From Coffea arabica (taxonomy: Eukaryota > Streptophyta > Magnoliopsida > Gentianales > Rubiaceae), in assembly GCF_036785885.1 (NCBI RefSeq), contig NC_092317.1:3164501-3228500 (forward strand): a DNA stretch of 64,000 bases. Reading direction: 5' to 3'. The notes beneath the pieces are model-generated. The model did not search any database. It saw only the letters and a program-made list of their open reading frames with translations, and had not been told where the DNA came from. Below, piece by piece: positions 3,139 to 58,148 of this stretch (its first letter is position 1; each line of letters begins with the position of its first letter). A program made the translations under genes and the position numbers.

Positions 3139-3411
3139 ATGGAGAGCTCCAGAGCAACCCTCTACCTTCAGAGGCCAAAAGCAGTCGAGGAAGCTGATAA
3201 TAAAGAAGAGAAGCCAAATACAGCGAAGGCCGGTCATGGTCCGATGAGGAGAGTAGCGGAGCCAAACGGCAAAAGGTTACTGGAGAGAAAGCCAACGGAA
3301 GATATAAATGCGAGCGCTGAGGCATTCATCAACAAGTTCAGGCAGCAGCTGCTCCTTCAGAGGCTTGAGTCCATTGAGAACTATGAACAAATGCTCAAAA
3401 GGGGCACATGA
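3139..3411 (+). CDS. DUF761 (cotton-fibre-protein-like) small protein
   Basis: Single-exon gene encoding 90 residues. The last 35 residues carry the DUF761 signature: an acidic lead (EDINASAEAFI), then a basic-amphipathic helix (NKFRQQLLLQRLESIENY) and the terminal EQMLKRGT. That end motif with FI-x-FR-x-QL-x-LQR is what defines the family (Pfam PF05553). The first 55 residues are charged and probably disordered, and I see no signal peptide or membrane segment. Family members are small plant-specific proteins of poorly known function, often induced by stress or in growing tissue. The ATG follows a TATA box by 85 bp and is the first in frame. The gene next along encodes a glyoxalase-like protein; I recall a DUF761 gene beside the equivalent Arabidopsis gene At1g15380, which would make this part of a conserved block. 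Confidence 0.8.
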   Translation: MESSRATLYLQRPKAVEEADNKEEKPNTAKAGHGPMRRVAEPNGKRLLERKPTEDINASAEAFINKFRQQLLLQRLESIENYEQMLKRGT

Positions 3412-3972
3412 TTTAAGTGTCGATTATCATTGATCAGCATAGAGCATAGCCCCCCACCTTATTCTTTTCAATTATCTCTTCCATTGATCCACTGTCAATT
3501 TTTGTGTCCCTTGAAAAAATTTGATTTGTGCTGTGCATCTACTATTAATATATAAGACATGTTATATGGGGAATTTATATTTGGGATTGTTTGAGACTAT
3601 GATTGCTTATTTTGTATCTTAATAATAAGCAACTCTTTGCCAGATGCCCGAGTAATTATGAATATGATATTTCTAACGATGCTGTTAATATGCTCATATT
3701 ATATCATAACTTAACGTGTAAACACGCACAATTATAATTATTACACTCTTCCTTTGAAAAAACTTTTGTAAAGTAATTGTAATTCTCTGAAAAAAAAAAT
3801 CGAACACCTAAAGATTCTCTTAATCACAGGAATATCTATTAATTCAAACTGTTTGTTTGTTGTTAGAATTAGGGAGTAAAATGATGCACATTGTAAATTT
3901 AGTTGAAATCCCGCTTATGACTTATGAGATGGACAAACAAAGAAAGGCCGGAAAAGATGCCAGCTCCCTAGG

Positions 3973-4022
3973 TGGACACTGGTTGGACAAGCCATGTTGG
4001 ACACTGGTTGGACAAGCCATGT
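3973..4022. repeat. Perfect 25-bp tandem duplication
   Basis: The unit TGGACACTGGTTGGACAAGC plus CATGT occurs twice head to tail with no mismatches. The perfect identity points to a recent slippage or unequal-exchange event. Confidence 0.9.
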
Positions 4023-4349
4023 TTGCATGGCTAGTGTTGGTTTTAGTCCATTCTATAGTTTTTTGGGTCGGAGTCCATTCTATAATCCCCTTAACTATCA
4101 GTTTAAGTAAGGTCCATTTGGTTCATCCCCATACTTACATAGCATGACATAAAATAGGACGAGCAATCCCATGTTGTCCCTGATTTGGTTGTTTTTGTGT
4201 GTGGATTAGCATCCTGGTTAACTAAAATAATCCCGTCTTAATGGGATAAATATTCCGGACGTGTTATTATTTATCCTGAATTAGTAATCATTTTGAACTA
4301 ATTTTGGTAAGTACGTGTTTATATCAAATCAAAACTTTTCAACAACAAA

Positions 4350-6681: not shown

Positions 6682-8251
6682 CTAAGGTCGCACTACGGGT
6701 AGGTGTTGCTGAGCTTGCATCATCTGCAGATTCACTCTTGAGCATGAACGGATCATCTCACCGGCCAATGGGATCACTGGCAGGTTATCACAGTTGCATA
6801 TCTCAATCATGAATCCATCTGGATCATGGAAGAACAGCTGATCCACATAAATCCCACCTTCTTCCACTCGCTGCCTCGCGTACTTGATTTCCATTTCCGC
6901 CAGCATCTTCTCCACTGCAGCCATACTGTCACACTGCACATAACCCATGATTCAAGCCAATTTTTTTTTTGTTGTGGGGGGGGGGGGGTTGTTTATAAAA
7001 TCTACAGCAGCAGGAAACCCACAAAATTTAGTGCTGTTTTTGGTTTTTGTGACAATGATAGGATGTGTACAAGTTTGTAACGTAAATAGTACTATTAGGT
7101 TACGTTGTTGACAGAGTCCATATCAGGACTTCCTCAACTGAATAGATAATACGCAAGAAACTGCATTACATCCGGCATAATTCTGTCACTGCATTTTCCT
7201 TTTTCCTATTATTTTTGGTACATTTCTTTAACAGAAAATTCTATATTGAATTTTAGAAACCGCCCTCAATTCCTGGTCCTGAAATATGTACCCAAAAGGG
7301 GAAGTGGAACCTTCCTCCTTTTCGGAGACGATGACAACTATTGTATAACCTATCTATCCTAAATTATAGAGAAGGGGAGTCTAAAGAGACTAAGTTTGGA
7401 GCTAATAGGTACATAAAATTTACTAGATCAAGACAGTACTTTACCATTACCCTTAGATTTTTTTTTTTACTGCAGATAAGATTTGAACCTTACTCAGTGG
7501 TTCTCCCTTCTTTGATACTATCGTCATATCATTGCAGAAGCACAATTTATCAATAATTTCTGGTCACTTTCAGAGAAACCTAGTTAATAGCTGTACCAAA
7601 TGCTACTAGTCTATACTATCTTCAATTTGGAATCAAACTTTTGACTTCATCCAGGTATTCATTTACGGTCTCTTTCTCGTAATCATAGTGCTTCCATGAG
7701 ATCACAGAGGAGAGGAAAAAACATGGTACGAAATAAAAGAACACGCACACGCACACAGTCACACACACCAGAGTAAAAGTAGTTGAAGCAAAAAGCAGAG
7801 ATGCAGTCATGCACCACCAGTAGCGTTATTAAGCCCCCCACCCGAAACACAAGACAACATCAGATTTCACAGCACCAATACTAAGACCGAGAAACAACCT
7901 GAAAAGATATATGATTATCCTTGGGATTGATTACGGTCTTCTCCGGCATGTCGTCCGGATTTTCGGCTTGCAATAGATGTATTCCAATCCCATAACTAAA
8001 CAACCTGCACCGTATCAAAACCCACAAGAAATTAGCAAAAAAAAAAGAAGTTCGATCAAGAACTTTCACGGCGAAAGATGAGATAAGTTGATATACCATG
8101 CTCCATCAAAATTGAACGATCCAGGCCTCCTAACGGGGACGAACCCAAGAACGCTGGTGTAAAAATCCATTGATTTCTCGACGGATTTACAAATAAGTGA
8201 GATGTGATTCAGGGATGTCAAGTGCAATGGATTTGCCGTATTTCCCTTCAT
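6682..8251 (-). CDS. Glyoxalase I-like (VOC superfamily) protein, 3 exons
   Basis: Exons on the minus strand are 8251-8097, 8004-7899 and 6933-6682, all with GT-AG junctions, giving 170 residues. It is a single VOC (vicinal oxygen chelate) domain: beta-strand one with LNHISLICKS (candidate metal ligand His16), the fold core FDGAWLFSYGIGIHLLQ, then DNHISFQ (His83), GGIYVDQLFFHDPDG and FMIEICNC (Glu131). The length and motif order match the plant lactoylglutathione lyase-like group that I recall as Arabidopsis GLYI4/GLYI7 (At1g15380, At1g80160), thought to act in methylglyoxal handling or related chemistry, though this group is not proven to be a classic glyoxalase I. No transit peptide is evident, so probably cytosolic. 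Intron 2 (6934-7898) contains a run of G. The start ATG is the first in frame and is followed immediately by the conserved domain. Confidence 0.9.
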
Positions 8252-13890: not shown

Positions 13891-13893
<3 letters not shown>

Positions 13894-14574: not shown

Positions 14575-16679
14575 ATGGAAGAGATAACAGATGGAGTAAA
14601 CGACATTAACATCAATAATAGTAATAATGATCTTCAAAAGAAGAATCGCATTCAAGTTTCCAATACTAAAAAGCCTCTCTTCTTCTACGTCAACCTCGCC
14701 AAGGTATATTAGTTTTTGTTTTCCTTTCATTTTCTTTTTCTTTTTTTTTTCAAATTCACAAGCTTCTGAATTTTTTCTTTTGTGTCTAAATCAATTATTC
14801 GTAATGTAAAGTTGGTGGTTGGTTTACGATGTATGGTTGCAGAGGTACATGCAGCAGCACAATGAGGTGGAGCTTTCGGCCCTTGGGATGGGTACTTTCT
14901 TAATCTAGGCTTGTTTTGCCAATTCGTTCCGTAATTAATATATGTATCCTTTTTTTTTTTTTTTTTGGATTTACTGATTTGAATCTTGTTCATGGATTTT
15001 GAATGCTTATCTGAAATAAAGAACATCTTGTCTGGCGCTCATGAATAAGGTTAACATTTAATGTTCCTTTTCTTAGGAAAACTGCTAAGCCTGTGTCTTA
15101 TGTAAATAGTCCATCAAATTACTAGGGCGTCTATTGGATTGGATTCCGTTGGTATGTCTATAATGACCGTATATAAAGTTACTTGGTGATTTCACAGGTA
15201 GATACCTAGGGGCGCGTGACAACTATGTCTATTGCCTACTGAAAACTAACTTGACTGTATACTATACCTTTTCTGAATTTTTGCTTGGTATGGCTTTCTT
15301 CTTCAAACCATTAAAATCTGTTGTTAGCTTTAATTGTTCATATTTATTTGTCCTGTCTTGCTGTATTGTGAAGTCTATTTCCCAAACTGAAAGTTGGCGT
15401 ATAGAAGAAAGTGCGGAATTGCACAGTTTCGAGCTGCTATAATTTGCCTGCAAGAAACATAGTAAATCTAATGCAAAAAATTACACTGTTTGAGGTGTTA
15501 AAAAAATGGCGATTCTCTGCTAACAGAGGAGTACTAATTTTCCCATTATAGCTGATGCTGTTTGGATGGACAAACTCTGGCATTCCGCTCCTGATATTGA
15601 AAAGGAATCATGTTCTGTTTCACATCCTGTTCAATCAGCTCATGTTGATTTGGACATGGGTTAAACGAGCTAAGGATGATCTTTAACTTGATAGCTTGTG
15701 AAGTATATGTACGGCTGCAACTGTTTAGCTTTATGTTCTTGAAGCGTATCATGATTTGGTGTAAGCTAGAACTTCACAAAGAACCAGTGCCTGATTGTGC
15801 ATTACATGACCAACATGAGATTGCTTCTTTAGAAGTCTTCGCACTGCTTGCTTTGCCACTATTATTTTTTTTTCTGGTAATAAGCACTGATGTCAATTTC
15901 TAATGTAATATCGCAGCAATTGCTACAGTTGTTTCGGTTGCAGAAATTCTGAAGAACAATGGCCTGGCTGTTGAAAAGAGTGAGTTATTTCCTCCCAGTT
16001 ATATCTTTCAAAACTTAAATTTATGTAGTGGATATGGATGTTATGATCCAGGTAGGATGAAGTTTATTTCTTTCTGAATTAAAACTATTGCAGGAATAGT
16101 GACATCAACTGTGGAGATAAAGGATGATTCCAGGGGGCGACCTGTTCAAAAGGCTAAGGTAATGATAGTAAATGTGTGGGTTTTGGGAAGTTTTCTTCTG
16201 CATTCCTGATGACAAACTACAATATCTTGGCCCCATTTTGTCTTCCCTCGTATTGAATTACAAACTTGGCAGAAGTAAATAGTTATAATGGGAAAATTAG
16301 TACTCCTCTGTTAGCTCTCTAACCTTTATTGGTTTAGTGAATGGGCCGTAGTACTCAAGTTTTAATTCTAAGTGATAAAGACTGAATTGCCGGTTTTCTG
16401 AGATAGCTTTTCATTTGGCATTGTTCTCTTTTGATCTTCAGACACCCATTGCGTTGTACCAGTAGAAATCTCATTTAATTCAAAACAGACTTGACATGCA
16501 TATTCAGTTTCTTGTCATATTTCTTTTATTTGGTTGAACATTAGCTGAAATTTCTGTTGCAGATTGAGATAGTGCTGGGGAAGTCGGCAAAATTTGATGA
16601 GTTGATGGCTGCTTCGCAAGAGGAGAGGGAGAACGAAGGGAAAGTGGGGCAGTCTGGAAATGTGGAGGAACAGAGCTGA
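14575..16679 (+). CDS. Alba-domain DNA/RNA-binding protein, 5 exons
   Basis: Exons 14575-14703, 14843-14891, 15917-15979, 16094-16158 and 16563-16679 give 140 residues with intact frame and GT-AG introns. Residues about 24-115 are a full Alba domain: RIQVSNTKKPLFFYVNLAK, the helix RYMQQHNEVELSALGMAIAT, then VVSVAEILKNNGLAVEK, the strand IVTSTVEIKDDSRGRPVQKAK, and the last strand IEIVLGKS. The acidic tail (EERENEGK onward) is disordered. Plant Alba proteins of this short class (Arabidopsis At2g34160/At1g29250 type, from memory) bind RNA or R-loops and work as dimers in nucleus and cytoplasm. Introns 2 (about 1 kb) and 4 contain the only long non-coding parts. The ATG lies just after a purine-rich leader and is the first in frame. 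Confidence 0.92.
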
Positions 16680-17901: not shown

Positions 17902-17993
17902 TAGGGATGGCAATGGGGGCGCCCGCCCCGCGGGGGGCTCTCGGGGCGGGGGGCGGGGGAGTATACCCCCGCCCCGTCACCCGCAAAACAAAA

Positions 17994-18024
<31 letters not shown>

Positions 18025-18637
18025 TAATATGTAAGTTAATTAGTTATAAACTTATGATAATGATATTATTAGTTAGATGTATTATATAATGTATATTAGT
18101 TTATGTAATATAATTGATACATGTCTACTAATATTATGAATAATTATACATGTCTACTAATAGAATTTATTAATTAGTTATACTAAATTTACTAATACAT
18201 TTATACTAAATTTCTAATTACACTTAATAGAATAACACTTTTTTCTCAAAAAAAAGCACAAACACAATAATGAATTAGTGATTGCATTTGTACTAAAAGT
18301 GAAAACTTGACTATTTTAGTTATATTTATTTCATCATATTGGATTGTATTCAAATAACTTCTGTTTGATTGTTTTTATGAGTTTCAATTGTAAAATTACA
18401 ATGAATAATAATTTGGTGATGTGTTGATATTTTAGTACTTGATTATTTATTAAAATTAAATTATAATAAAATTATATTAACCCCGCGGGTGCCCCCGCGG
18501 GGGAAGCAGGGCAAGGCGGGGCGGGGACGGGGCGGGGCGGGGGGAGCGGGGGACGGGGGACGGGGGAGCTAATAGGCAACGGGGCGGGGGACGGGGGAGG
18601 GGTCCCCCGCCCCAACCCCGCCCCGTTGCCATCCCTA
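17902..18637. mobile_element. hAT-type MITE with extremely GC-rich ends
   Basis: Ends TAGGGATGGCAA and TTGCCATCCCTA are inverted repeats and fit the hAT end rule (C/T-A-G-G-G). An identical 8-bp duplication GGCTAGTT flanks it (17894-17901 and 18638-18645), also the hAT hallmark. Length 736 bp. The ends are followed by long G- and C-runs (GGGGCGGGG, CCCCGCCCC words over about 60 bp on the left and 150 bp on the right) around an AT-rich core with an AT microsatellite. It has no transposase. The perfect target repeats suggest a fairly recent insertion. Confidence 0.85.
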
Positions 18638-20371: not shown

Positions 20372-23300
20372 ATGATAGAGTTAATGCTCAAGAAACCTTT
20401 GCTTAGTATTGTAGTGGTGCTGATAGTCTCTTTGTTCCTTATTCTGTTCTCATCATCTTCTCCTTTCTCTGAAACCCCTTATAGTATTACTTCGTTGTGA
20501 GTTACAAATCTCTTCGTTTTTTTTCCCTGGGCTTCGTGCACCTGTACTCTCTGTTTACTTCTTAGAAGTTACGAAAAGTTCTTTGTTTTTTAGCGTCTTG
20601 TTATTTTGTAAAGGTAATGCTGAAAATTTTAACGTGTTATTGTTAATTGAACAGCTCAGATAGACCGGAGATTTGGAGTCTTCGAAGGGTTGTTGAATGG
20701 AGACCCTGCAAATGGTGGCTTCAACAACCTCCTTCTCGTTAGTATTATGGACTTCTTTATTTCAATTATGGAAATTCCTGTTTTGTTTCAGTATATTCTT
20801 TTTCTGGGTTTTAGGGTGCAGATATCATGTTTTCAGATTCTAAATGGGCTGTGCTGATTTTATGGAACTTCTCACGAATTTTAAACCTTGAGAAGATATA
20901 CTATATGTTTTTTCGTTGGTATTATGTTTGTAAATCTGTATCTGGTAAACGGGATTTGCTTGGAAATGAATAGATAACTTGGATGGGCTTTTCATGATGG
21001 ATATATAATTTGGATGATCTAGTTTTTCTCTAAGTCAAAGTTGACTGGCTTCCAATGCAGACATTTGGATTTGGTTTTTTGTGTTGATATGCTGCAGCTC
21101 TACCTGCTCACAGTAATGGTTACATTCGTGTGGATTGCTATGGTGGGCTCAATCAGATGAGAAGGGATGTAAGTACTTGGCCTTTGTTTCTTATTCCCTT
21201 TCAACTTCACACTTCAGCCCCTCTCTGCTTTCTTCATTTGTTTTCCTTTGTAGTATGATATCGTAACATCATGTTCGATGTGCTTTGTGCAATTTGCAGT
21301 TTTGCGATGGCGTTGGGATTGCTCGACTGCTTAATGCAACTCTTGTTTTGCCCAAATTTGAAGTGGCCGCATATTGGAATGAATCAAGGTAAGTGAAGCT
21401 CTTATGTAATACTTATCGGGCTATCCACTCATGGAGTTGCATCTTTGTTATATATTAACTTTTACTTCCCTAGGATGCCAGTCAAGGCAACACTAAACTT
21501 GTCTCAATTGTAGGACCATTCCATGTTTGAGATTCATTTCAATATTAGTCTTTCGTATAGCAATTTGATTAGCACAAGTTGCATATTTTACGATCATGAC
21601 TGCATTGTGTAGTTTATTGCTCAGGTAAGAATCAAATAGCTTAAGGCTGTAGTTCTTGCATGCTGTTCCTAAGATTGCCTCAATACACAAGATAATGCCC
21701 ACAATTTTACTCTTGATAATTTTGTAGCACCTATATTAGCCCTGGCAATTGTATAAGCGATATATGGAATTTGAAGAAGAGTTGATGTCAGTTCTTTTAC
21801 TCAAAATACATCTAAACCGTCATCCATAGCTTGTGAGCCATGATCGGCTAATTGTGGCATTTCATCAAGAGAGCTTTGTGGAGTGAAATAATACCTGCAC
21901 TCATGTAATTCAATCCAGTCATCCCTGGGATGTAATCCTTCACAAGCACTCTTGGACTATGACAACCCGAGTCTGTACATTGAAGGATGAGTTATTTTCT
22001 TTCTGCCAAATGTGGAAGTTTTCTTCCTATAACCAACATATTGATAATGTCTCATCCTTTCCTTTGCATGGTTAATCACAGTCTCACAGCTGGACTGTGA
22101 TCTAAGGATTTTTTTTTTCACTTGGCCTTTAAAAATCTTAGGTGAGTGCTGTCTATTCAAGTGAAGGAGATATCTTAGACTATGCCACCAACTTCTGTTG
22201 AATATACAGGGGAGATGCATCTCCTAATCCATCTCTAATGCATCTTTTTATTTAGTGCTTTCCTTTCTGTTTACTTCCATGTGATATTGTGCATAACTTT
22301 TTCTGTTATATTTCAGTGGGTTTGCAGATGTGTTTGATGTGGATTACTTCATCCAAGAAATGAATGGCTATGTTAAAGTAGTTAAAGATTTGCCTGCAGA
22401 TATTGCATCAAAAGAACCTTTTCGAGTAGATTGTAGCAAGAGAAAAGGCCAGTTTGATTATGTTGAAAGTGTACTTCCTGCTTTATTGGAGCATCGTTAT
22501 ATATCTATGACACCTGCAATGAGTCAGAGAAGGGATAGGTAAAGCTCAAGTGTCTATTTATATTTCTTATAGTGTTAGAAAGCGTTAATGGCTGCACACG
22601 TGAAATGTTGAACAAAACTCACTTATTTGAATCCCACTTCTTGATATTATGACTATCTTCTCTGTAGGTATCCTTTACATGGAAAGGCTGCTCTTTGTCA
22701 AGCTTGTTATACTGCTCTGCGACTTACTAACTCTTTGGAGAAAAAGGGCCTTGAGCTTCTGCAGGCTATACCTAAGCCCTTCCTCTCGCTGCACCTGAGG
22801 TTTGAACCTGACATGGTTGCATACAGCCAATGTGAGTACTTTGGTCTTTCTTCTACCTCCTTAAAAGCTATAGAGGCAGCACGTGCGGACCGCAAACCCT
22901 GGGCTGGAGAAGCATCCCGTATTTGGAGAAACCGCGGCAAGTGTCCCCTCACTCCAAATGAGACTGCTCTCATTCTTCAGGCTCTTTCCGTCCCTACAAA
23001 CACAAATATATATTTGGCCGCTGGAGATGGGCTTATGGAACTTGAAGGGCTTACCTCTGTATACACTAATGCTGTTACAAAATCCACCCTTCTTAGTGAT
23101 GAGGACTTCACAAGCATGCATGGAAACACAAAAGCTGCCCTTGATTATTATGTATCCATTAACAGCGACTATTACATTGCTACGTACTTTGGGAATATGG
23201 ATAAGATGGTAGCAGCAATACGGGCTATGAAGGGGTTGTACAAAACGCTTTTCTTAAGTAGGAGGGCTTTTGCAGTATTCACATCTCAAGGGCTCAGAGG

Positions 23301-23400
23301 GGAAAGATTAATGGAAGCACTGTGGAAGGCTCATAGAGATGATTTTGTAATGAGTAGGGGTTCTGCTTTATCTGACTGCTTTTGTGAGTTCCAGTTATAG
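20372..23400 (+). CDS. O-fucosyltransferase family protein, 6 exons
   Basis: Exons 20372-20496, 20655-20737, 21098-21168, 21300-21388, 22317-22538 and 22668-23400 give 440 residues. Residues 9-28 (LLSIVVVLIVSLFLILFSSS) are one N-terminal membrane anchor, so a type II Golgi protein is expected. The plant O-fucosyltransferase domain (PF10250) follows: VDCYGGLNQMRRDFCDGVGI, LLNATLVLPKFEV, then LSLHLRFEPDM (HLR at 239-241, the GDP-fucose-binding region) and late motifs such as CPLTPNETALILQAL and LDYYVSINSDYYIATYFGNM. The family transfers fucose, or related sugars such as rhamnose, from a nucleotide sugar; the acceptor here is unknown. Closest relative from memory is At1g52630, of nearly the same length. 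The next gene, 1.8 kb on and convergent, resembles At1g52620. The start ATG opens the membrane anchor. Confidence 0.93.
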
Positions 23401-31179: not shown

Positions 31180-32436
31180 TCACAGTTTAGTTTCAGTTTG
31201 AATATTCCCATATTTTCTTGTCAGCATAGACTGCATGGTATTCATTTGATGTGCAGAAAAAGGTGGTGTCCTTTTCTTAGCCAAACTGATCACAAATTTT
31301 GCCTTATCAATTTTTCCAGTCTTCCGTAGCCCTTCAAGTAGCTTTAGTATAGTGTCGATGCTTGGAAACCAATTCTTTTCCATGCTTTTTTTAGACATCG
31401 TATATGCTAAATCAAAGTCATTGGCTTCGCAGAGATAATGAATCATTGTCTGATAAATTTTGACATTTGGTTGAATGCCTCGATCAGGTAAATGTGAATA
31501 AATCCTTTTTGCCATATCAAGAAATCCAGCTCGGTAGAACCCTTTGATCAACAAGTTATATGTGACCTCATCTGGTTTTAGACCTAGGTGATGCATCAAA
31601 CCCACTAATTTATTAGCATCCCAAGACCGACCTTTATTCACCAAGAATTGGATTCTGACATTGAATGTGGCAAGGTTAGGCAAACAACCATTGAGAATCA
31701 TAAGGTTCCACAACCCATTACCAATATGCCGCTGGTTAAACTTATAAAAAGCTGATATAAGCGTCGTATATGTAACCACATCAGGTCTTATTCCCAACTT
31801 TTCCATCTCTAACATGATCAAATGTGCCCTATCCAATATTCCCATTTCACATACTGCCTTGATGACGATATTCACAGAGTATACATCTAGCTTGACACCA
31901 CACTCTAAAGGAGCCTCCCTAAAAAATGACTCAATTGCCTCCAAATCATGGGATAGAGTCAGAACCTTCAGTGCAGCATTGAACGCCTTGACGGTTCGCT
32001 GACAACCATACAAATGCATGTCAAAGAACGTATTAACAGCTTGCTTAAACATACCTGCCTTTCCATACAGCATTATAATCCGAATGATAAACCCTTCGCG
32101 ACGACCTTGGGGCAAAATTTTCTGATGTTCAAGTAAATTTTCAATATAATCAAATCTGCCCGCCCCAGCTAATCGAGAAACCGTGTCCTCAAATGCAAAC
32201 CGGTTTTCAACAACTAACTTATTACGAGCATTAGCCTTGAACAAATTAAATAACTTCTCAGGGTCCCTTTCCTTCTTCAACTTGACAAGGGCTGGCTCAT
32301 CTAACTCTATGGGTTCCCTTACCACATTGGAAACCGGCCTCTCCCTAACAGAGTTAACATTCTCAGTACACGTAATAGCAGCCGCTACAATGTGGGTTGC
32401 AGTGCCAAATCTGCGAACCAGGCGCAGAGATAGCAT
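31180..32436 (-). CDS. P-class PPR protein, At1g80150-like, probably mitochondrial
   Basis: Intronless, 418 residues. The first 25 residues (MLSLRLVRRFGTATHIVAAA) are Arg-rich and lack acidic residues, a good mitochondrial presequence. Next comes KLKKERDPEKLFNLFKANAR, then LAGAGRFDYIENLLEHQK and GRREGFIIRIIMLYGKAGM, a lead that I recall from Arabidopsis At1g80150 (mitochondrial). About eight P-type PPR repeats follow, such as DVVTYTTLISAFYKFNQR and NVKIYQTMIHYLCEANDFD, ending in a short basic tail. It should bind mitochondrial RNA. In Arabidopsis At1g80150 sits next to the glyoxalase-like At1g80160; here a glyoxalase-like gene is 23 kb away with other genes between. Confidence 0.9.
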   Translation of the reverse strand: MLSLRLVRRFGTATHIVAAAITCTENVNSVRERPVSNVVREPIELDEPALVKLKKERDPEKLFNLFKANARNKLVVENRFAFEDTVSRLAGAGRFDYIENLLEHQKILPQGRREGFIIRIIMLYGKAGMFKQAVNTFFDMHLYGCQRTVKAFNAALKVLTLSHDLEAIESFFREAPLECGVKLDVYSVNIVIKAVCEMGILDRAHLIMLEMEKLGIRPDVVTYTTLISAFYKFNQRHIGNGLWNLMILNGCLPNLATFNVRIQFLVNKGRSWDANKLVGLMHHLGLKPDEVTYNLLIKGFYRAGFLDMAKRIYSHLPDRGIQPNVKIYQTMIHYLCEANDFDLAYTMSKKSMEKNWFPSIDTILKLLEGLRKTGKIDKAKFVISLAKKRTPPFSAHQMNTMQSMLTRKYGNIQTETKL

Positions 32437-36032: not shown

Positions 36033-38888
36033 TCAGTCTTTTGATGTAATGACAAGTAACCCCAATACACCAATGAGAACATACTGCAGATGTGGGGAAA
36101 AAAAATAATAAAGGAGTAGTTATTCCATCAAATCAAACTACTTTTGGGGCAGTACCAAACCTGGAAGCAGTTCAAAATCTTGCTGCTATAGCTAATATGG
36201 AATTTGACATGATCATCTTTAAAATTCAAAGAGAGATGCATCAAGAATTTAATATATACACAATTTGAGAAGTACTGTGTAGAACAGGAAAATTTTTAGT
36301 CTTTGTCGAGCAATTTGATCCTTTTCGCTTATGATCAAGAACCAGACAATATAAGTAGTACAGATCAAAAGTTCACAAACCTTGACAATGGGTTTCTCAG
36401 TCATAATGATGGTCACCCAGCCGACATATGGTAAGAACCTGATTATGCACCACCCACAAAGGGAAAAAGAGAAGGTGATCAGCCCTTGTTTTGGCAATCA
36501 TAATGAGAAAATACACATACATTCCTTTAACAATCAAGTATTAATCACTTGCAAGCCCAGAAGAAATGGTTATAACATCAAAAACAGGTATGAGCTCTAG
36601 TTCTCCTGGTTATGCTCACTTTCCTCAGCTCTACTTCTGCTGTTGTGCTGCATATTATTAGCCCACAAAAAGCACGAGGGTACCGTGTCACTGTATCTAT
36701 GTTACAGTTTCCCTTGACTATACCAAAGATTATATATCTGAGATACACTTAGTGTAATTTAAAAGGAAGCAAGAAAGGTCATGACAAAGGAGAAAAGGAG
36801 AGAAATCAAGGGCTGGGAGGAGAATGATATCATTTTACAGATTATTACCCCACAGCTCTACCCATTATATGGCGCTGCTCAAGCCAGCGCTGTCCAGGAG
36901 CATATAAACCTATGTCATCACCAGGATTGGCATCCCCTGAGAGAAAAAAGGGAAAAAGGTAGAGGCATTGGAGAACAAGAAAGTATTTAACAGATAACCT
37001 CTGTTTAACCAAATAAAAAACCGTTGTTTGTCCAAAGGAAAAGCAGTGAAAGCATAGGAGCACTTGATGGAAATGCTGTCATCTTCTCTCAGCATAGTAA
37101 AAACATAAAATAAATTCATAATTAGCTATCTTGATAGAGCAAGCAAGAGTAAAGATCTGGCACCTTTTGTCAGGATGTTAACTTCTCCTGTATCTTTTCG
37201 TTCATGAACCTACAAGAGCAATGGGAATCTGGAATTGAAAACAAAAAGACCAGTAGCCGCATGGTAGTTTTTGTGATAATAATGTATGAAGAAAGAAGGT
37301 GATCTGAGATTCACAAGTAGAATAACAGGGTGAAATCTCATTGCACGGTAGAATTCACCACTCACCTCTTACTGCACTGCAGAAATAATTGGAAAACAAA
37401 GAATAACTGATAATTTGATTACCTTGATTACGCGATGGACAATTGGAATTGAACGACCCTGCAAAAGTGCAAAGGTGAATGTGTAAACAGTGAATTGCCA
37501 GAAGGCGGAGGTCAACAAGATTGAGAAATTAAATATGCACTCTCTTTTTTGAGCATGTTATTGACTGATTATTACATACAATGAAAGGGATAATCAGAGA
37601 CAAGAATAAGAACTCTTACATCAACATTGTAAACAATGATTTCTCCTGCTCTAATAGGATCATTGTTCATGTGCAAGAATAAAATGTCTCCCTGCAAATA
37701 AAAATAGGTGTCACTTTGGTGTGTACAATGCATAATACTGCTTTTTCAATAAAGGGCAGTTAAAATTAACTCAACACTTAACATAGATCTTTCAAAAGAG
37801 AAAAGGAACTTGAAGCACTCGCACGGTTTTCATGAACTCAAAAAATTGTCTTCAGAAGATAAAGTTCGGATTCTGTTGAGGCGGTATACAAGCCATGGAA
37901 AAAGTAAGAAGCAGAGTGACACAGAGAGAACGGGAGAGCGTTTCAATCTGCAATAGAAGAAAGTTTAGGATCGTAGAAGGCACTGAGCTTCTCCAAAACT
38001 GAGTCGGGAACAGAAGTTTCCAAGACAATTCATAAGCGCATTGAATTCTCGAAACAAATCAGCTTTTCAGCTCTAACTGGTTTCTGGCTTTCTTTGACTA
38101 ACAGCCCGACTGGTTGGTTCTCATCGATAAAGGTTTATTTGGACAGTAGAGTTGGATAAATTTACCCTCTTGAAACCAGGTTCCATGCTTCCAGTAAGAA
38201 CAACAACTACAGGAGATTCACTCCCGGTAATGCACATTAACGCCTTCCATATTATGAGCGCACTACTAATAATCATACCTGAGCAGAACAAAAACAGACG
38301 TTAGAACGCTAACCATCTTGATAGGCTACTAAACCACAACATCCTTATAAATTTGCAGATATGACTTCAACTAATTTGGAATGCATACACATTCCGAGCA
38401 ACAAATGAATCACTACTTAGACAGTAGAGTGTTGCAGAAGGACTAAATCCGCTACTAATTTCTTAGATGATTTCTCGATGAGAAAAACCAAAATGAACCA
38501 ATGAAGCTTCACTTAATATAACAAACTTAGACGTTTATGTTATAAACTAATTTATTTCCCCACAATCTGTAACTGAGCAAACTTAGACGTTGACTCTGTA
38601 TTTTGTGAGTTCATCAGAAAGAGCAAGAAAATTTTTGTAACGATGGGATTGATCAAACGGGTTTTGCTCAATCATCAATGTTGACTTCCTCAAAGAACAG
38701 ATAACTTGAAAAAAAAAAAACAATGTTTATGTTATAAACTAAAATTTAACGAATGAATGGAAGGCAACAAACCAAAATGAGAAATAAAGTAAAGAGAAAG
38801 AAACCAAACCAAAGCTGACGGCGTCGTTGAGGGCCTTCCTAATTTGAAAACTTTTTATTGATTCCACAGTTTCGGCAACCCACTCCAT
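36033..38888 (-). CDS. SEC11: SEC11, catalytic subunit of the signal peptidase complex, 8 exons
   Basis: Exons on the minus strand: 38888-38810, 38278-38166, 37691-37620, 37458-37423, 37209-37164, 36936-36849, 36438-36381, 36083-36033. The frame is unbroken and gives 180 residues, the usual length. It is an S26 serine protease that removes signal peptides from proteins entering the ER. Visible: an N-terminal amphipathic part, a membrane segment around 28-45 ([16 protein letters not shown]), the nucleophile in LTGSMEPGF (Ser57), IPIVHRVIK with His96, and GDANPGDD with the acidic member of the triad (Asp117-123 region). A C-terminal hydrophobic helix ends in TSKD. Closest from memory is At1g52600 (SEC11A type). 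The start is the first ATG before the conserved [20 protein letters not shown]. Confidence 0.95.
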
Positions 38889-40350: not shown

Positions 40351-43051
40351 ATGCTAACTTCTCAACTCATGGCGCTCATCCTACCAGCTGGGTGTGCACG
40401 ATTAACAGTGTCTCCTCCGGCGCATGTTAGATTCCGACGCCCCCGTGTTCCTAATACTTACGCGGCCATCTCCAGCCCAACTCGGACAGCCGGAGACGAT
40501 GCGGTGGATTGGGTTGAGGCAACGTCTAGTTTCTTCCAACAAGATTCTCGGCCCATCATGTTATTCGACGGTATTTCATTAATCGATTGCAGCTTATTTC
40601 ACTAAATATGTAATTGAAATCAATGGCACTTGTCTATTAATTTTTCTAGCTCTTGGGTAATAGTTTTCGTTGCAGCATACTGAGTTGCCAGTCATTTGTT
40701 ACTAATTAACATCATTATACACACCGAATTCTTCAATTTTCTCAAAATTAGATTCGATTTTTATTTCTAGAAAATCCTTTTACTTTTGCGGATTAAACTT
40801 AACTAGGAGAAGATGAACTTTTGTAGCACAAATCCTGAACTAAGTTCGGGAGGGAAAATTGGTTTTAAATTTTTAATCCTTCCTTTCTTCTAGTGATTAA
40901 TTTGGAAGTGGAGAAAAGGAATATTTTACTCTTTTTTTCTTGTATCATTATCCAAGATCGTAGGAAACAAGAAAATTTAGCTGCCTCATTTTTTGTTTTG
41001 GAGTAGTCATTGGAAATAATAGGCTGCAAATCACTGTGTATATGACGAACGGCTAAAGTGAAGATGTGTTCTTGATCTGTTTGATAGGCGTATGCAACTT
41101 ATGTAATGGAGGTGTGAAATTTGTCCGTGATAATGATCCACAAAGGTAAAGTATATTGATTTGCCTACGGGTTTAGTGTTTTATCAGCTTATGCATTTCT
41201 TTTTTCCTTTATGTAGGTCTCTGCTTCTGAAAATGCTAGTAATCTTGTTATAGGTCTAGAAAAAGACCCTTTAGCCTTGACTTTAGAGCTTAGATGACAT
41301 CTTTGTATGTTTTCTCCCTTGACCCGATTGGATCTTTGAAAATGCTCTCATTTACCACAAACACATAATTATTGTACATTCACAAAACTTAATGTGAAGG
41401 TAATGAAAAATTAGGACTCATAAACACAAGGATGAGTTTATGAAGGTAAAAAGACTGAATATGCATATATCAGGTTGAATCAATAAGTTAATGAAATGGT
41501 CATTGGTGGAATGAGGCCTTGCCCTGATGCTACCTCCAGAATTTCTTGAAGCATATCAAAGAGCAGGAAGTGCAAAGTTACAAGAAAATTACTGGTCAAG
41601 TCTATGAGATGCTCAAAATCCCCTTCAAGTGAACTTGTAGTTCTGTTTTAAGCAATGTTGGACTGTTGATAAAGGTTTTCTTGTTTAGCATGCATAACTG
41701 ATTTAGAGGACCATGGTTGAAAAATCTAGGGGTGGCAATTCGGGTCCAAATCAGGTTGACGGGTCGGGTTCGGGTCAACCCGTCAGAAAATCTGTTGACC
41801 CGAACCCGACCCGCCAACCCGTGACAGGTCAGGTATGCTGACCCGAATCCGAAAATTTCGGGTTGGCGGGTCAACCCGAAATGATCCGAAACTTAATTTT
41901 AATTTATTAATTTATCACTGTAATTTCTAATAAAATCAATTTCTCACAAAACTAATTACATAATCAAGTAATAAAAATTTAAATAAATAATTCCAAACCA
42001 AATCTAAAATAAATTAAACACCGTAAAAGTGTTTTATCCCAAACAAAATATAAAATAAATTAAAACAATATAAAAGTAAAAAATAATATAATATATTCTT
42101 TGTCCAAATATAATAATTTCAACTTCACACAAATTAAATAAATTCATTTAGGATTAAGTAATTAATGCCTTTGAAAAAAAGAATAACTTAGTTTAGTTAG
42201 ATAAAATTATTTTTATGTTTATTAAATTATTTTTAATTCGTAAACGGGTTATATCGGGTCATATCAGGTCACCACGGGTTGACCCGAAATCGACCTGTTT
42301 TCTTTTCGGGTTCATCGGGTCCAACCCGATTCTGACCCGAATTCCCGAAACCTCAACCCAAACCCATTAATTTCGTGTTAGGTTCGTGTCGTGTTTTCAG
42401 GTCGTGTCGAAAATTGCCACCCCTAGAAAAATCCTTGTAGTTTTAGTTCTTGAAATTTCTGATTTGTATTGCTTTTTGGCCCACAGGTTTGCTTATTTTC
42501 CTGATAAAACTTGCAATTATTTTGCAGGAGAATCAGATTTGAAGCGCTACAGAGTGAAGCAGGCAAGAAACTGTTAAGAAGATCTGGACGAGCTGCCGAT
42601 GATATTTCAAGCGTTGTAGTGGTTGAAAAAGACAGGTACTTGCATAAATGGTTGGTCAAGGTTCAGTATTGTAAATTTAATCCTTGAATCAACTTAGTAA
42701 TGCCAATAGTCATGTTAAGTGTGTTGTGAGATCTGGTGCCTTTGTTTTGAAGAATAACGTCCTTGTTACAGGTCTTATATCAAGTCAGAAGCTGTATTAA
42801 AGATCATGGAGTACATAGACTTGCCCTTTCCGCAGCTTGCTTTTTTCCTTCAGTTTGTTCCTCTGTAAGTGAGAATTGTCTTCTTGTTATACCTACTTCT
42901 ACGTTCTACCTTAATGGTGGCCAAACGTCATTCAATTAATGCTTTTCTCACTCCTCTTGGTTATTGCAGTTTCATCCGAGATTTCTTCTATGACAACGTT
43001 GCAAATAATCGTTACACATTTTTCGGTCGCTCTGATACATGTGAACTGTAA
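40351..43051 (+). CDS. DCC family thiol-disulfide oxidoreductase, plastid-type, 5 exons
   Basis: Exons 40351-40570, 41088-41145, 42528-42635, 42772-42864 and 42970-43051 give 186 residues with all GT-AG junctions in frame. The first 60 residues are rich in Ala, Arg, Pro and Ser without early acids, as expected for a chloroplast transit peptide. Then comes RPIMLFDGVCNLCNGGVKFV, the DCC signature with the C76-x-x-C79 pair, and a C-terminal thioredoxin-like fold (EALQSEAGKKLLRR, VVVVEKDRSYIKSEAVLKIM, FFLQFVPLFIRDFFYDNVAN). The family (PF04134) is predicted to do thiol-disulfide redox chemistry; substrates are not known. Closest from memory is DCC protein At1g52590. A second in-frame ATG at 40369 is an alternative start. 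Intron 2 (41146-42527) contains a complete hAT MITE. Confidence 0.93.
41728..42425. mobile_element. hAT-type MITE inside intron 2 of the DCC gene
   Basis: Ends TAGGGGTGGCAATT and ATTGCCACCCCTA are near-perfect inverted repeats of the hAT type, flanked by an exact 8-bp duplication GAAAAATC (41720-41727 and 42426-42433). Length 698 bp. Both ends carry repeated CGGGTTGACCCG-type words around an AT-rich core. No transposase. It lies wholly within an intron, about 580 bp from the upstream exon and 100 bp from the next, so splicing sites are not disturbed. The perfect flanks suggest a fairly recent insertion. Confidence 0.88.
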
Positions 43052-43994: not shown

Positions 43995-45024
43995 CTACAT
44001 AGCGGACTTATCTGCAGCAGCACTGTAGTAGTAACAGTTGTTGAACCCATACCAAACTTCACTGGGTATAAAAACGTCGTAGTAGAAGGTAACAGGGCGG
44101 GTGTTGTAGCCATAAACAGTCACATCATAAGGTCTCCAGCCATCTCGTCCCCTCCTGTAGAGATATAAATAACAAATCTGGTAGGTACAGGGTCCATATA
44201 TCTCAAACGTATCCGTTGAACACCGCTCGAACGTCCTCGACCGTGGATCATCTAGCCTTGGTGCATAAACCTTGCAAACCAAAAACACCCAATTTTGTTT
44301 GACAAATTACAAGAGGTAATTTAGTCACAAGTTGCCGTAAAGATTTGACGTAAAAGCATACAACAGCACTTGGAGGATGTTGTCCGGAATAATTTGTTCT
44401 TTCAGCTCAGGAAGAAGATAAGCTGAAAAGGGAAAAGTATAATACTTGGTTTGTTTCTAAGCAAACAAGAATATGCCCATCATTGTCCGAAGCCATCATA
44501 CCCCAGTTTACTATTTTAAACAAAGCATGCTTTGATTCTTTAACAGTACCAGAATCAAACTAATTAACTGAATGATGGGTTGGCTTCAAACTTTCAAGTA
44601 ATTGCATAAAAAGATGAATTGTGAATGATCGAATTTTGTGCAGTAGAATTACCTGATTGCCATAAGCATCACCAAAGGAGAGGCTGATACGATCTCGGGT
44701 GTACCGGACAGATGAACAGCTCGTCCTTATGCTCACCGTAAACGAACAGGTGCTCCTCTGATTCTGTAATAATACAGCAATTTGAAAAAGCCAAACAAAG
44801 AAGACCCAAAAAAAACAAAAGCGAATTATTTTGCAGATAAGTAGTCAATGCAATTACATGGTACTACAGAAAAATGCACGCGAATAGTTTACCAGCGGCT
44901 GGGTTGCGTTGATTTTGAAGGATAGAAGAGGCTGAGCAGGCCGTGGGATGATTCTTGATCTGCTTCCATCTGAGCAGGTGGCGACGAGAGCAAAGAAGAT
45001 GAGAAAATTTACTGCTCTCAACAT
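43995..45024 (-). CDS. Embryo-specific protein ATS3-like, PLAT/LH2-type, secreted, 3 exons
   Basis: Exons on the minus strand are 45024-44893, 44763-44653 and 44270-43995, giving 172 residues. A signal peptide is clear (MLRAVNFLIFFALVATCSDG), so the protein enters the secretory pathway. The mature part is a small beta-rich domain of the PLAT/LH2 kind with conserved Cys: STCSFTVSIRTSCSSVRYTR, then RISLSFGDAYGNQVYAPRLD, ERCSTDTFEIYGPCTYQICY and LYRRGRDGW, ending FYYDVFIPSEVWYGFNNCYY. That order is the ATS3 (embryo-specific protein 3) family, expressed mainly in seeds in Arabidopsis. Some family descriptions link it to cell-wall or stress roles, which I cannot confirm. The codon upstream in the same frame is GTG, so the ATG at 45024 is the start. 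Confidence 0.9.
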
Positions 45025-45189: not shown

Positions 45190-45615
45190 AAAAAAAATAC
45201 CCGTCTTAGCTACTACTCTATTAATTTTGATTTAGACAGGACTACTCTGTCGTCCTTTTATGTAGCAATGGTTACAGGTTATTTGTTGGTACGACACGTG
45301 TCTATGTCTCTAACAAATTTACCTTTTTGGAATGACCCACGTTTGAATAGGTCCGATTTGCAAAAAATTAATGGTGCAAATTGAATCACACCATTTCAAC
45401 AAAAGAAAAATATCTGTCTTCATTACTACACTATTTATTGTGATTTGGACAGAATTGCTCTGTTGTCCCTTTATTTACCTATAGTTACAGGTTATTTGTT
45501 AACACGACACGTGTCCATGTCCCCAACAACTTTACCTTCTTGATAAGACGCGCATTTGAGTAGACTCGATTTTCAAAAACTCAATAATTCAAATTGTATG
45601 ACATCACTTGGTGAA
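45190..45615. repeat. Tandem duplication of 213 bp upstream of the ATS3-like gene, each unit with a G-box
   Basis: Two head-to-tail units (about 45190-45402 and 45403-45615) share TTACAGGTTATTTGTT, ACGACACGTGTC and ATGTC words at a constant 213-bp offset. Each holds the same palindrome GACACGTGTC (45293-45302 and 45506-45515), a CACGTG G-box. They lie about 270 and 480 bp upstream of the ATS3-like ATG. A shorter degenerate repeat of CACAAATTGAG and AAAATCGAATCTACCCA continues to about 45770. Confidence 0.75.

Positions 45616-46771: not shown

Positions 46772-46811
<40 letters not shown>
46734..46811. repeat. C12 tract and A40 tract
   Basis: A homopolymer of 12 C (46734-46745) and one of 40 A (46772-46811), separated by a short CCCCC/CAACAA spacer. 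It lies in the 3' flank of LOLITA, so the transcript there would carry poly-U and poly-G if it read this far. Homopolymer length is prone to sequencing error. Confidence 0.8.
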
Positions 46812-46991: not shown

Positions 46992-49557
46992 TTAGAAGTC
47001 AGTTGGAGGTTTCAATCTTATTAGTCTCTTGATTCTGTCTCTGTCTGTGTTCTCCAGCAATCCCTATAAAAGAGAGAGAAACAACAGCTTGAGCCTTCTT
47101 CCCAGAAGATCAGGAGACCAAGTACAGCAGAGAATCGGCAGAAAACAACCATGTGCAATGCAGGCCAAGTTTGGCAACCAAATAAAAGAAGCACCACTAG
47201 GGAGCATGCAGCAATATGACCGCCAGTGATTCAAGAAGCTATAACGAATGTTACAAACTGCAAGACGTTACAAGCTCTACGGTTGCAGGCATTCATTCTC
47301 TAATGCTGTGTTGTGACATATTTGCAACGCATATAGGTGCACTCTCAATCAATTAGAAACTAAAAATACATGACAGGAAGAATATAGGAAATCATTTGCA
47401 AGGGGCTGAACATATGGCAGTACATGGAACTGACAACTGATTGCAAGAATGATGTCATTAGATCTTTTCTTCTTTTGGTGCAACAGAGGAACTGGTGGAA
47501 AGGGATGGAAAATTGAACTAGTGCAACAGAGGAACCGGTGGAAGGGCAGGGAAAATTGAACTATGTACCAGCTGGGAGGCCTTACCCACCCTCCAGTGGA
47601 ATACCATTATCAACTATATTGAAAATGCTATAAAGCTCAGGAGTTCACATAGACGCATAAAAAATGTTTCAACTTGAAAACAAGAAAATTGCAAAAACTG
47701 TACTAACAGACCCTCTCACCTTCCACACAATCTCATCAAGGCACAAGCAAATCTTTCCATACTTGTCAAGGAAAAGGCGCTCAGTTGGTGCTTTTCCGCA
47801 TACGTCCTTGATAGCAGATGTTATCACAAAGATTGCTTCTGACACTTTTAATAGATGCAACAAATTAGATTTACTTCAATCGTAGAGAGAATGAGATTGC
47901 AAGTCAGGTGAAATTAAGCACGCAGATTGCATTAGATAGCACCCCTAGGCCCTCTAGCCAAGGAAAATAGCCAAAAAGCAGGAAAGTTTCATAGCATGAT
48001 CCCACCACTTGCAGAAGATCTGTTAGTTTTTCATAATTGCTTTTGCAATCACATGCTGAAAGACAACATTAGGACACACCCATATCAAAATATGTACTGC
48101 CACAGTATGATATGATAAATGCATTAAATTTCGTTAATTTGCCAAGAAGATCTTTTTAATCATATCTAGGGGAATGCATATGTACCAAGTACCCAAAAGA
48201 ATATATGTTTCAACTTTTTCCCAAAAAAACTTCAAAACTAAAAACTTTGCAAAATATGGCAAAACTCTTACAGGCAAGTTCATCATATTCATCCTTGCCA
48301 ACAACAAAAATGCTGACATCACCAAGAACTGTATAGACAATATACACTGATCTGCAAAACAAACAATGAGCTAATGAGATTACATAAAAGTGACTTACAA
48401 GATATTATCTCTAATTCTTCCTAAGAATGTGGAAGGAATTAAAATACTGGCCTTAACTTAACTATCAATAACAAAAAGAAGGGAAGTTGCATACTTGTGG
48501 GAAGCAACAAGGAGCTCTTCATTTTTTACACCTTTAAGATTATCTGCTCCGAGCTTAACTAAGAAAGATCGCCAATGCAGACGTTCCTCTGCAGGGACTC
48601 CATTGAAACTACATCACATGATAAATTTTCAAAAAACCCATTAAACATTAAAAAAGAACAACAGATCCTCATTGCCTGTTTCTGTGCTATATTTCAAAAC
48701 AATCAACCATAACCCCATGTAAAAGTGTGAAACTAAAACTCCTCATCTAATATAAAAAAAAAAGGACTGGAAAATAAAATTTGTTACTTCCTTGTCAAGG
48801 GGATAAGCATCCATGTGTACTTTCCAAAACAAAGAGAAAAGCGGCCCGGAAAAGCAAATGCTGTCTTCTCTGTGGCAAAACGCTCTTGCGAATCACAACA
48901 TAAGTCCATAATTTACATTTAATTTGACATCATAATCATCTTCCTAGTCAGTTTTTGTTAGCAGACGACATAGCAAAGGGGCCTCATTGAGTGGATAAAA
49001 TCTTTCCCAATACCTAGCATCAAAAGTTTTTAGTCAAGATATTTAACCAATTAACTTTCTAGTAAATGTCTCGGGATCAATGACAAATCATTCGACCTAG
49101 AAAACATCTAATTAAAGCCACATAAACACTTTCAGCCCTTCTTCCCACCCCTTATCCCTTGCCCACAAAAGAATCTATCAAATTTCCATTGGCATCACAA
49201 TATTTTTGAAAAAAAAAAAAGGGGCATCAGCTTTGACGCTCCATAACTGCTTATACCAAACTGATTTCTTATTTCAGCATAATCCTAGCAAATAAATCCA
49301 ATCTTTTAATATTTTCTTTTGCTCTGACGATCATTCGAAAATGATGCTACAATAAAATGTCAACAGATAACAACGAAGATGGAAAATCAGGGACTCATAT
49401 CTGGTGGGAAACATAAATCATGAAGCTTCCAATTTTGCAGGGTTTATAATAAGAAACAAAAACAAAGAACGACATCGGACGGTGGGTTGAGGTATTAGAT
49501 TTACCGTTCGACAAGGATATTTCCCTCGGAGTTGGCGATCAAGACGGCGAGCAACAT
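46992..49557 (-). CDS. LOLITA: LOLITA, longin-type subunit of the TPLATE endocytic complex, 5 exons
   Basis: Exons on the minus strand are 49557-49505, 48608-48495, 48351-48272, 47844-47720 and 47063-46992, giving 147 residues, frame intact. It has a longin/sigma-adaptin-like fold: MLLAVLIANSEGNILVERF at the start, RLHWRSFLVKLGADNLKGVK, HKSVYIVYTVLGDVSIFVVG, ALSEAIFVITSAIKDVCGK and ERLFLDKYGKICLCLDEIVW. The end is IKRLIRLKPPTDF. The sequence matches what I remember of Arabidopsis At1g15370, named LOLITA, the small sigma-like subunit of the TPLATE complex that drives clathrin-mediated endocytosis at the plasma membrane. A plain coatomer zeta or AP sigma subunit is less likely because the characteristic residues differ. 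Conserved single copy is expected. The SHN1-type gene lies about 7.7 kb on, as At1g15360 lies beside At1g15370 in Arabidopsis. Confidence 0.9.
47478..47562. repeat. 43-bp tandem duplication in LOLITA intron 4
   Basis: Two copies of GTGCAACAGAGGAACTGGTG followed by GAA...AAAATTGAACTA, with a few differences, lie head to tail within the last LOLITA intron. Simple local duplication. Confidence 0.8.
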
Positions 49558-54500: not shown

Positions 54501-55164
54501 ATAGACGTGACAGCTGAATCTTGTAAAGATGCCACATCAGCGTCCGTGTTCCTAAATCCATGATAATTGACGAGTTTACACATGTATTAATTCTTGAAGT
54601 GACATTAGAGATTTCCAATCAAACTTGCCACATATATAAAAAATATTTTTGTGTATTTATGGACTTTAGCGTATATTAAAGTGGATAAACACGTTGTGCA
54701 ATAACAGAGCATTATTGTGGTTGATTCCCATTAGGTGCAGACGAACAGACTAATAACCGCTCGTAGTAGCGATCAACATGCATCATTTTCAAAGAATCAA
54801 CACTTCATGTCACGTTTGTTTGTTGATGCATTGTTAACTCAAGCAAACTGATAACAAAATCGATCAACAAATCAAATGCTTTCTTGAATTATCAATGCAT
54901 CACACGTGTCAGCTGTATAAACACAGAATAGGTAAAACAGAAGGTAATTTCGAAACAGAAGATTCTAAGTGTTTATTCAAGGACTTGTCTTTATTAATAA
55001 CTATGACAGTTGAGCCATATAATGAGTTAGTAATTAATGGTACGCTAACAAATGAGTTACTCGAAGAAATACGTTATTGAAGCTGGACATCAATCCTTCA
55101 AAACAAAAAAAGCTAGACATAAAAAATGTTGCTAAACCATTTCATGTGTTACATGTCATTTATA

Positions 55165-55690
55165 GGTAGGATTGCAAACAAATCAAACCGCTTGATTCAG
55201 TCAAAACTTGACTCAAAACCGGTCAACATCGAGATCGAGCCGACCAAGCTGAGTTTGAGCCAAAAAAGAGAGGCTCTAGTTCATTAGTTCGCAAGCCGCT
55301 TGATCATATAAATATGTGTGTGTGTATATATAAATTTTAATTTAATAGTGAAATTACAAATATATTTCTAATATTTTATTATTTGTTATGGAAATTTTAT
55401 TATTTTACTTTTTAAAAAAAATATAATAAATTTTTTTAATTTTTTTAAACTCGAATAGGGTGGAACTCTAGTTCTACTAGACTCGAATTTGAAATCAAGA
55501 TTGAGTTCGAACTCAATAAAATTGAGTTGAGACTCGACTTAATTAGGTCAAAATTCAACTCGATTCGATTTCGAGCTCGATCCTATTCGAATTTGAGGTC
55601 GAGATCGAGTTTGAACTTAATAAAATTGAATCGATACTCGACTCGATTGGATCAAAGTTAGACTCGATTTGACTTGTTTTTTTAGCCATA
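55165..55690. repeat. Degenerate TCGA-rich interspersed repeat, second stretch
   Basis: Dense in GACTCGA, GAGTTCGA, TTGAGTTGAG and TCGAGCTCGAT words, as in the stretch at 4350-4930. Probably an old non-autonomous element. The left start ATAGGTAGGATTGCAAAC looks faintly like a hAT end, but no matching right end was seen. Confidence 0.4.
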
Positions 55691-57303
55691 TTTATGGGAG
55701 ATGTTGTTGCTTTCGGTTATAAAGACGGAGGATCTTCATTCAAACTTTCATAGTGTTTTTTTTTCTTTCGAATTTCCGTATCATTGTCACTTCTTTGAGC
55801 TGAGAGTGGAGAAGAAAAGAAAAACGTATATTTAGCCCCTTTTTTTTTTTTTGTCAAACACATATTCAGCTTATTTGACTTGCTACACATATTATAAACG
55901 AGAAAAACGAGATAGCAGAAAGGGTGAAGGAAGAATATGAATACAGAACCTCTATAATTCTTGGGAGTTCAACCAATTCATAATATATTAATGTTGAAAA
56001 ATTCAAACTTATTTCAGGCATTCTCTCCGAAAATCATCAATTAACTGCATAACTACAGCTAGTTTGGACTCAAACATTACTCCGCAACCATTATGTTTCC
56101 TAATTAATTTGTAGCTGTAGGGAGGACAGACAGTTTTCGAGAAATGCTTTTACACTAACTAAAATATGTGCCACGATTTTGGTAGAAGCATTCGCGGAAA
56201 ACGGTTTTGTGTAAGATGAAGTCATGCTATCAAATCGAACTTTAGAAGAATAGTTTGAGAACATATTTACTAAAATACTATCTTAACAAAAAAACTCCTT
56301 TCTTCAAATTTTTTTTTTTCTTTTCCAATAAGGAACTCCATAACCCCTTCATAAAGGAAAAATGACACTGCATAGACAAGCTCAAAAGAGGGAGCTGTGA
56401 GGACACGAGACAATGGCAAGTACTTGCCATGTGTGCATGAAAATTGTTTCGGTAGAATTTACTTTTTTGCGATCACAATATAATATTGTGATCAAGTCAC
56501 TGAGTGCAAATTTTGACTCAGTTTTCTAAATATTTTTGGGCTCCATTTTTTTTTTTCATAGAACTTCATTAAACTATTCTTCTTGAGCTTGTGACTTACA
56601 GTAATATACTGTCTCTAAATTTGTTTGAATAGAAGATTAGTTAAAAAAATTATTTAGAATAACACAGTAGCACATTTTATAATTCTTTGATATAAAGGTG
56701 GTTGATAGAATAAAAAGGATGGAAAAAAAATGAGTTTATGATATAAGTAAAATAATATTTACAAATAATGAACTATCTAAGCACCTTTTTTTAATGGAAA
56801 AAGGTCAAAATCAACACTATAAGAAGTGAATTGTGACAACTTTTAGAGCCACATCTATAAGGAATAATCAAGGAGTGAAAAATTAGACATAAAGGTTTTG
56901 TTAGCCCATATAAATTTGATGCATCCATATTTTATACTCTCTACTCTTCAGTCCACAGAAAATACACGAAACATACACATTTTGTTACCATCTGATATTT
57001 GCAGTAACAACTCTCAATCCAACACAATGATGTCACTTGAAACCAACGTAAAACAGCTCCCCTGTATAAAAGTCCAAATCAGCATATAAATCAACTCTAA
57101 GATTTGTGAACAACTTTTTTTATGTATAGTCTATAACTCATCCCAGTCTCGAAGCATCACAACAAAAGTAAGCCCCGACCGGTAAGTGGTAAGAAAAGCA
57201 TACATCAATGACAGGGCTCTGCACATGGAATCAGCTATTAGCCCCCCACAGACTAACGCATCAACACTTACTATAATTGACATCATATACTAAGAGATCT
57301 TCA

Positions 57304-58148
57304 TTAGTTTCTGTTCAGGAGTTCCTCAATCATCTGCAGTGCAATCCTCTGCTCTTCATCCAAGGAGTCTCCGTGTGATGATGATGAAGTGGTGGTGGTG
57401 GTGGTATTGGTGGTGGTGGTGGTCTCCGGGGGTATTGCCCGCTTGAAGCTTGGACATTGCTGATGATCATTAACGTTATTAGTACTAGTATCACTACGAT
57501 CACTAGCCTTCATGCGAAGATCAACAGTCATCACCCAATTGGAATCTGGACGCGCCCCGGCTCGCTTTTGCCAAACCCCAATATGGGAATTCTCGGTGTC
57601 AAGCCTTAGGCAAGTGAGCGAAGGAGATGGTGATTTGCAACACTTGCGAAGCTTTGCACCTAGGACCGCCGAGAGAGCAGCAGATGATGATGACGATGAT
57701 AGATTGGAAGAGGAGGCATGATCAGTATTGGCAGTCTGGTTCATTTGGACTGGGAAGTTGGTTTTTGCATTTCGTCCGCTCATTAAAACTGCTGCTTCAT
57801 CATATGCCCTGGCTGCCTCTTCTGCAGTCTCAAACGTCCCCAGCCAAACCCTCCTCTTCCTATAACACACAAAAATTGTACTAGTAATCAAAGATGATTC
57901 AAGAGAAAAAAAGCTAACTTTGGCTTGAAATGCGCAAAATTTTCATGTCAGACTCCGACCAACTATTAGTGATGAGTGGTATATATATATAGAGTGTAGT
58001 AGTACAGTATGGAATATGATGAATATTGAAATAGATAGATTAATGATGAGCAGTTAAGGAGAATATACAGCAGAGGATGGCGAATCTCAGATACCCAAGA
58101 ACCCCAATGGCGTTGCCTGACTCCTCTGAACTTCTTAGTTTGTACCAT
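57304..58148 (-). CDS. SHN1: WIN1/SHN1-type AP2/ERF transcription factor, 2 exons
   Basis: Exons on the minus strand are 58148-58069 and 57859-57304, giving 211 residues. Residues 1-65 are a complete AP2/ERF domain: [40 protein letters not shown] and [20 protein letters not shown], with the intron at the SHINE-clade position after RHPL. The clade's middle motif follows ([40 protein letters not shown]) and the C-terminal [12 protein letters not shown] closes it. Between them is a poly-Ser and a Thr/Asn-rich linker encoded by simple repeats. SHN proteins switch on cutin and wax genes in the epidermis nucleus. From memory this is the At1g15360 type, next to At1g15370 (LOLITA) as here. Serine in WVSE where Arabidopsis SHN1 has alanine is common elsewhere in the clade. 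Confidence 0.93.

Follow-up and report, generated by a model that had tools for sequence, protein, structure and literature searches.

The question raised by this locus was whether one contiguous segment, lying within a 64,000-nucleotide stretch of DNA (the window), keeps a gene order that has been divided in Arabidopsis among several chromosomal regions. Judged by its gene families, the window is plant nuclear DNA with flowering-plant genes; its G+C content was about 36%, and the genes were multi-exon in part. A sequence-only reading of this DNA had named nine genes, assigned them to the Arabidopsis regions At1g15, At1g80, and At1g52, and proposed that duplicated Arabidopsis copies of the segment had each lost different genes.

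The gene content was established from the ORF lists, frame reading, and Pfam: single-exon genes were taken as long frames from the ORF lists, and spliced genes were modeled by reading three frames round each candidate, joining the exons, and checking the splice sites by script. The nine named genes plus two further ones, i.e., eleven genes in total, were found within positions 3139 to 58148, and the ends of this block were exact: the start codon of DUF761 stands at 3139 and that of the SHN-type AP2 gene at 58148. All eleven models had complete reading frames, with GT-AG intron borders wherever introns were present, and every one of the eleven proteins scored above the cut-off of its Pfam family. 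The nine genes were thereby confirmed as belonging to the named families and standing in the named order, but the list itself proved incomplete, since the intact ALBA and ATS3 genes inside the block had gone unlisted. Several intact genes lay together on one segment, as in a fractionated syntenic segment, and their order, strands, and families were as given in Table 1.

Table 1. Positions of the eleven genes and two transposable elements, with the putative Arabidopsis labels
Feature	Position	Strand	Putative label	Structure	Supporting match or ends
DUF761 (cotton fibre expressed protein type)	3139..3411	+		1 exon, 90 aa	Pfam DUF761, E 1.2e-17
Glyoxalase-like (VOC)	6682..8251	-	At1g15380/At1g80160 type	3 exons, 170 aa	Pfam Glyoxalase, 58.3 bits
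ALBA	14575..16679	+	Unlisted	5 exons, 140 aa	Pfam Alba, 51.2 bits
hAT-like non-autonomous element	17902..18637			736 bp	TIR TAGGGATGGCAA, 8-bp target duplication
GDP-fucose protein O-fucosyltransferase-family (O-FucT)	20372..23400	+	At1g52630	6 exons, 440 aa	Pfam O-FucT, 227.3 bits
PPR	25240..27702	-	At1g52620 (PPR19)	1 exon, 820 aa	Pfam PPR_2, E 1e-129
PPR	31180..32436	-	At1g80150	1 exon, 418 aa	Pfam PPR_2, E 3.1e-38
SEC11-type signal peptidase catalytic subunit	36033..38888	-	At1g52600	8 exons, 180 aa	Pfam Peptidase_S24, 32.3 bits
DCC1-like thiol-disulfide oxidoreductase	40351..43051	+	At1g52590	5 exons, 186 aa	Pfam DCC1-like, 95.9 bits
hAT-like non-autonomous element in DCC gene intron 2	41727..42425			699 bp	14-bp perfect TIR, intact 8-bp target duplication
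ATS3 (embryo-specific protein 3)	43995..45024	-	Unlisted	3 exons, 172 aa	Pfam ATS3, 172.1 bits
Adaptor small-chain/SNARE-like	46992..49557	-	LOLITA, At1g15370	5 exons, 147 aa	Pfam Clat_adaptor_s, 23.6 bits (cut-off 22.5)
SHN/WIN-type AP2/ERF transcription factor	57304..58148	-	At1g15360	2 exons, 211 aa	Pfam AP2, 47.4 bits

The search for extra genes compared with Pfam 20 of the listed ORFs of at least 60 aa lying between the models. Two of the 20 matched ATS3, a third one (44857-45081) overlapped the first exon of ATS3 but had no match, and the remaining 17 hit no Pfam family above cut-off; with this coverage, further genes that are small or divergent may be present. No tRNA gene was found in the window (search with bacterial settings), and no Rfam family reached its gathering score there.

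Comparison with solved structures was applied to several of the proteins: the SEC11-type protein aligned to SEC11C (PDB 7p2q, E 2.5e-62), the glyoxalase-like protein gave weak matches only (best E 2.5e-05), and the O-FucT protein had no match at E 0.001. The LOLITA-like protein, which had the lowest family support among the eleven, gave solved-structure matches all at E 0.017 or above, the best being coatomer zeta; a pure run of 40 A was located at 46772-46811, downstream of its gene. Scans for relatives yielded 10 pattern matches for the O-FucT protein in prokaryote contigs and 13 for the LOLITA-like protein in viral contigs, with 0 confirmed in either case, and these results say nothing on plants because the collections were composed of prokaryotes and viruses.

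Two transposable elements were recognized in the block, and for the one at 17902-18637 we take hAT to be the superfamily name. In 30 shuffled versions of the window no hit was obtained for either element. The ends of the 17902-18637 element were very rich in G+C and its core was AT-rich; the G+C-rich reading frames at this position, which are glycine-rich, are explained by this element. The intact ends of the element in the DCC gene point to a fairly recent insertion. A third left-end-like sequence (TAGGGATAGCAA) was present at 34828, and the right-end pattern matched only the two elements in the window. Two further repeats were observed: (i) a G+C-rich 60-bp direct repeat (33421-33480 and 34711-34770, 72% alike), possibly the ends of another element, and (ii) just upstream of ATS3, a 213-bp unit in two tandem copies (45178-45603, 77% alike).

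With the putative labels assumed, the genes formed three runs, all of them descending along the window: (i) DUF761 to At1g15360, (ii) At1g80160 to At1g80150, and (iii) At1g52630 to At1g52590. On permutation of the nine assumed labels, all three runs were unidirectional in 756 of 362,880 orders (1 in 480), and without DUF761 this was so in 420 of 40,320 (1 in 96, labels again assumed). The labels may have been picked by chromosomal neighbourhood, above all At1g80150 for the PPR gene that bears it, and a choice of this kind would inflate the order test; the use of this test as an independent probability was dropped, since its labels were presumed.

We take the At1g15, At1g80, and At1g52 regions to be descendants of one segment, produced by the Arabidopsis duplications. 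The block is probably an ordinary eudicot segment, rich in genes, in which an older order has been retained; its Arabidopsis copies would each have lost different genes after duplication. The segment would have been multiplied in the Arabidopsis lineage by known genome duplications, each duplicated copy would then have lost its own subset of genes, and the resulting Arabidopsis copies would be DUF761–GLYI4–LOLITA–SHN1 (At1g15), GLYI7–PPR (At1g80), and O-FucT–PPR19–SEC11–DCC (At1g52), plus a further SEC11 at At3g15. At3g15710 is described as the second Arabidopsis SEC11 copy, and both it and At1g52600 are marked in segmentally duplicated regions (PMC1560137), so this segmental duplicate adds a fourth Arabidopsis segment. 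The proposed loss of different genes is partly supported, in so far as the interleaving fits it and the runs are unidirectional under the labels, but not as a complete account in three regions, given this fourth SEC11-bearing one and two genes, ALBA and ATS3, whose listed Arabidopsis copies lie outside all three. For the same reasons 'ancestral, less fractionated' is a description that we infer; the window alone does not establish its own order as ancestral, and the shared ancestral order and the duplication history are inferences of the same kind.

Nine of the eleven genes fit the three-region scheme, as the ALBA and ATS3 copies, as listed, fall elsewhere. The ALBA protein was identical to Arabidopsis At2g34160 (PDB 1vm0) at 99 of 122 aligned residues, and At2g41475 is presumably a further Arabidopsis ATS3 gene. 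PMC7914821 lists six ALBA genes of Arabidopsis, none of them in the At1g15, At1g52, or At1g80 regions, and a table of GPI-anchored proteins, which is no census of the ATS3 family, gives At5g07190 (as SEED GENE 3), At5g62200, and At5g62210 (PMC6726743). The two genes would have departed from here in the Arabidopsis lineage or, alternatively, arrived in the lineage of the window. Up to half of the genes of Arabidopsis may have changed place since its lineage parted from that of papaya (PMC2869330); with gene movement said to be so common, the lack of a gene from a segment need not mean fractionation loss. It is conceivable, though on balance rather doubtful, that the pre-duplication order of all eleven genes was kept here, with ALBA between the glyoxalase and O-fucosyltransferase genes and ATS3 between the DCC and LOLITA-like genes, and that both later left in the Arabidopsis lineage; if true, two datable gene moves would stand beside the fractionation.

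The same two genes bear on a different origin of the block, namely that its order is partly secondary, with the At1g52-type run, the At1g80150-type PPR gene, ALBA, and ATS3 having been brought beside At1g15-type genes in the lineage of the window, through either rearrangement or the transposition of single genes. The positions of the listed ALBA and ATS3 copies outside the three regions (the ATS3 list being no census) would agree with such an origin, and the two hAT-like elements and the 213-bp tandem duplication upstream of ATS3 attest local change. However, if the labels hold, genes of the At1g52 and At1g15 types are interleaved in one consistent direction, a pattern that the joining of unrelated segments would not produce, and the introns of ALBA and ATS3 show that these two are not simple retrocopies. 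We regard a partly secondary order as unlikely, and we keep to an older order with differential loss in Arabidopsis.

This preferred reading depends on the nine Arabidopsis labels. LOLITA is taken here to be At1g15370, and a DUF761 gene is assumed to adjoin At1g15380 in Arabidopsis. PPR, AP2/ERF, and O-fucosyltransferase-like proteins form large families. The published assignments were as follows: At1g52600, signal peptidase (PMC1560137); At1g52590, DCC (PMC12587418); At1g52620, PPR19 (PMC7352785); At1g52630, O-fucosyltransferase (PMC11332057); At1g80150, named merely as a member of the TPR-like superfamily (PMC11676349); At1g15380 and At1g80160, glyoxalase I, assigned to the conserved collinear blocks A and E (PMC5764358); and At1g15360, SHN1, with SHN2 and SHN3 being At5g11190 and At5g25390, respectively (PMC3102738). 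At1g15370 appeared in its source just as a Brassica map marker of block A (PMC4769297), and LOLITA is described as a longin-like part of the TPLATE complex (PMC10431929). The published family or superfamily thus agreed with the putative codes in eight cases (seven window genes, the LOLITA-like and DUF761 genes not among them). Orthology of the nine genes to these exact loci is putative. That some of the large-family labels (the two PPR genes and the AP2 gene) are wrong, and the three-region pattern is partly a product of recall, is very unlikely: the codes were assigned from motifs, the families just named are large, and SHN2 (At5g11190) and SHN3 (At5g25390) are alternatives to SHN1, but O-FucT, SEC11, and DCC each combine family support with published codes consistent with their labels. 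The LOLITA-like gene has weak family support and an assumed code.

If differential loss from an older order holds, this block is one more local case of duplicated plant chromosomes losing different genes, and it would aid in naming Arabidopsis counterparts and in separating positional orthologs from moved genes (ALBA and ATS3); no general view is altered by it. The literature search found no text naming two or more of six codes of the block together, by which absence from print is not claimed; 15 papers named at least one of them, and the word microsynteny was not found among the matches listed for SHN1 (12 of 13 papers). Ku et al. 2000 reportedly described, to go by the title, a tomato-Arabidopsis network of synteny, in which a tomato segment is set against Arabidopsis segments that were duplicated and then selectively lost genes; the kind of pattern is alike, but the region and species are different, and here the match to Arabidopsis goes by the putative labels.

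Two published systems could be compared more closely. Prunus regions match several Arabidopsis regions, for which the authors invoked duplication plus selective gene loss after comparison with the present and reconstructed ancestral Arabidopsis genome; that case relied on ESTs anchored to maps and BAC contigs, whereas here one contiguous segment was annotated (PMC1479338). The Coffea canephora EIN4 BAC carries nine genes in grape order, its matches in Arabidopsis being divided between two duplicated segments; grape and other plant sequences served for that comparison, whereas the present window was read by itself (PMC2656508). The EIN4 BAC and the window are alike in (i) the order of one segment divided among duplicated Arabidopsis segments, for the window if the putative labels hold, and (ii) frequent MITE-type elements (PMC2656508). 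The pattern proposed for the window is plausible but ordinary; published examples come from coffee, from Prunus, and, to go by the cited title, from tomato, and nothing beyond this kind was found in the window.
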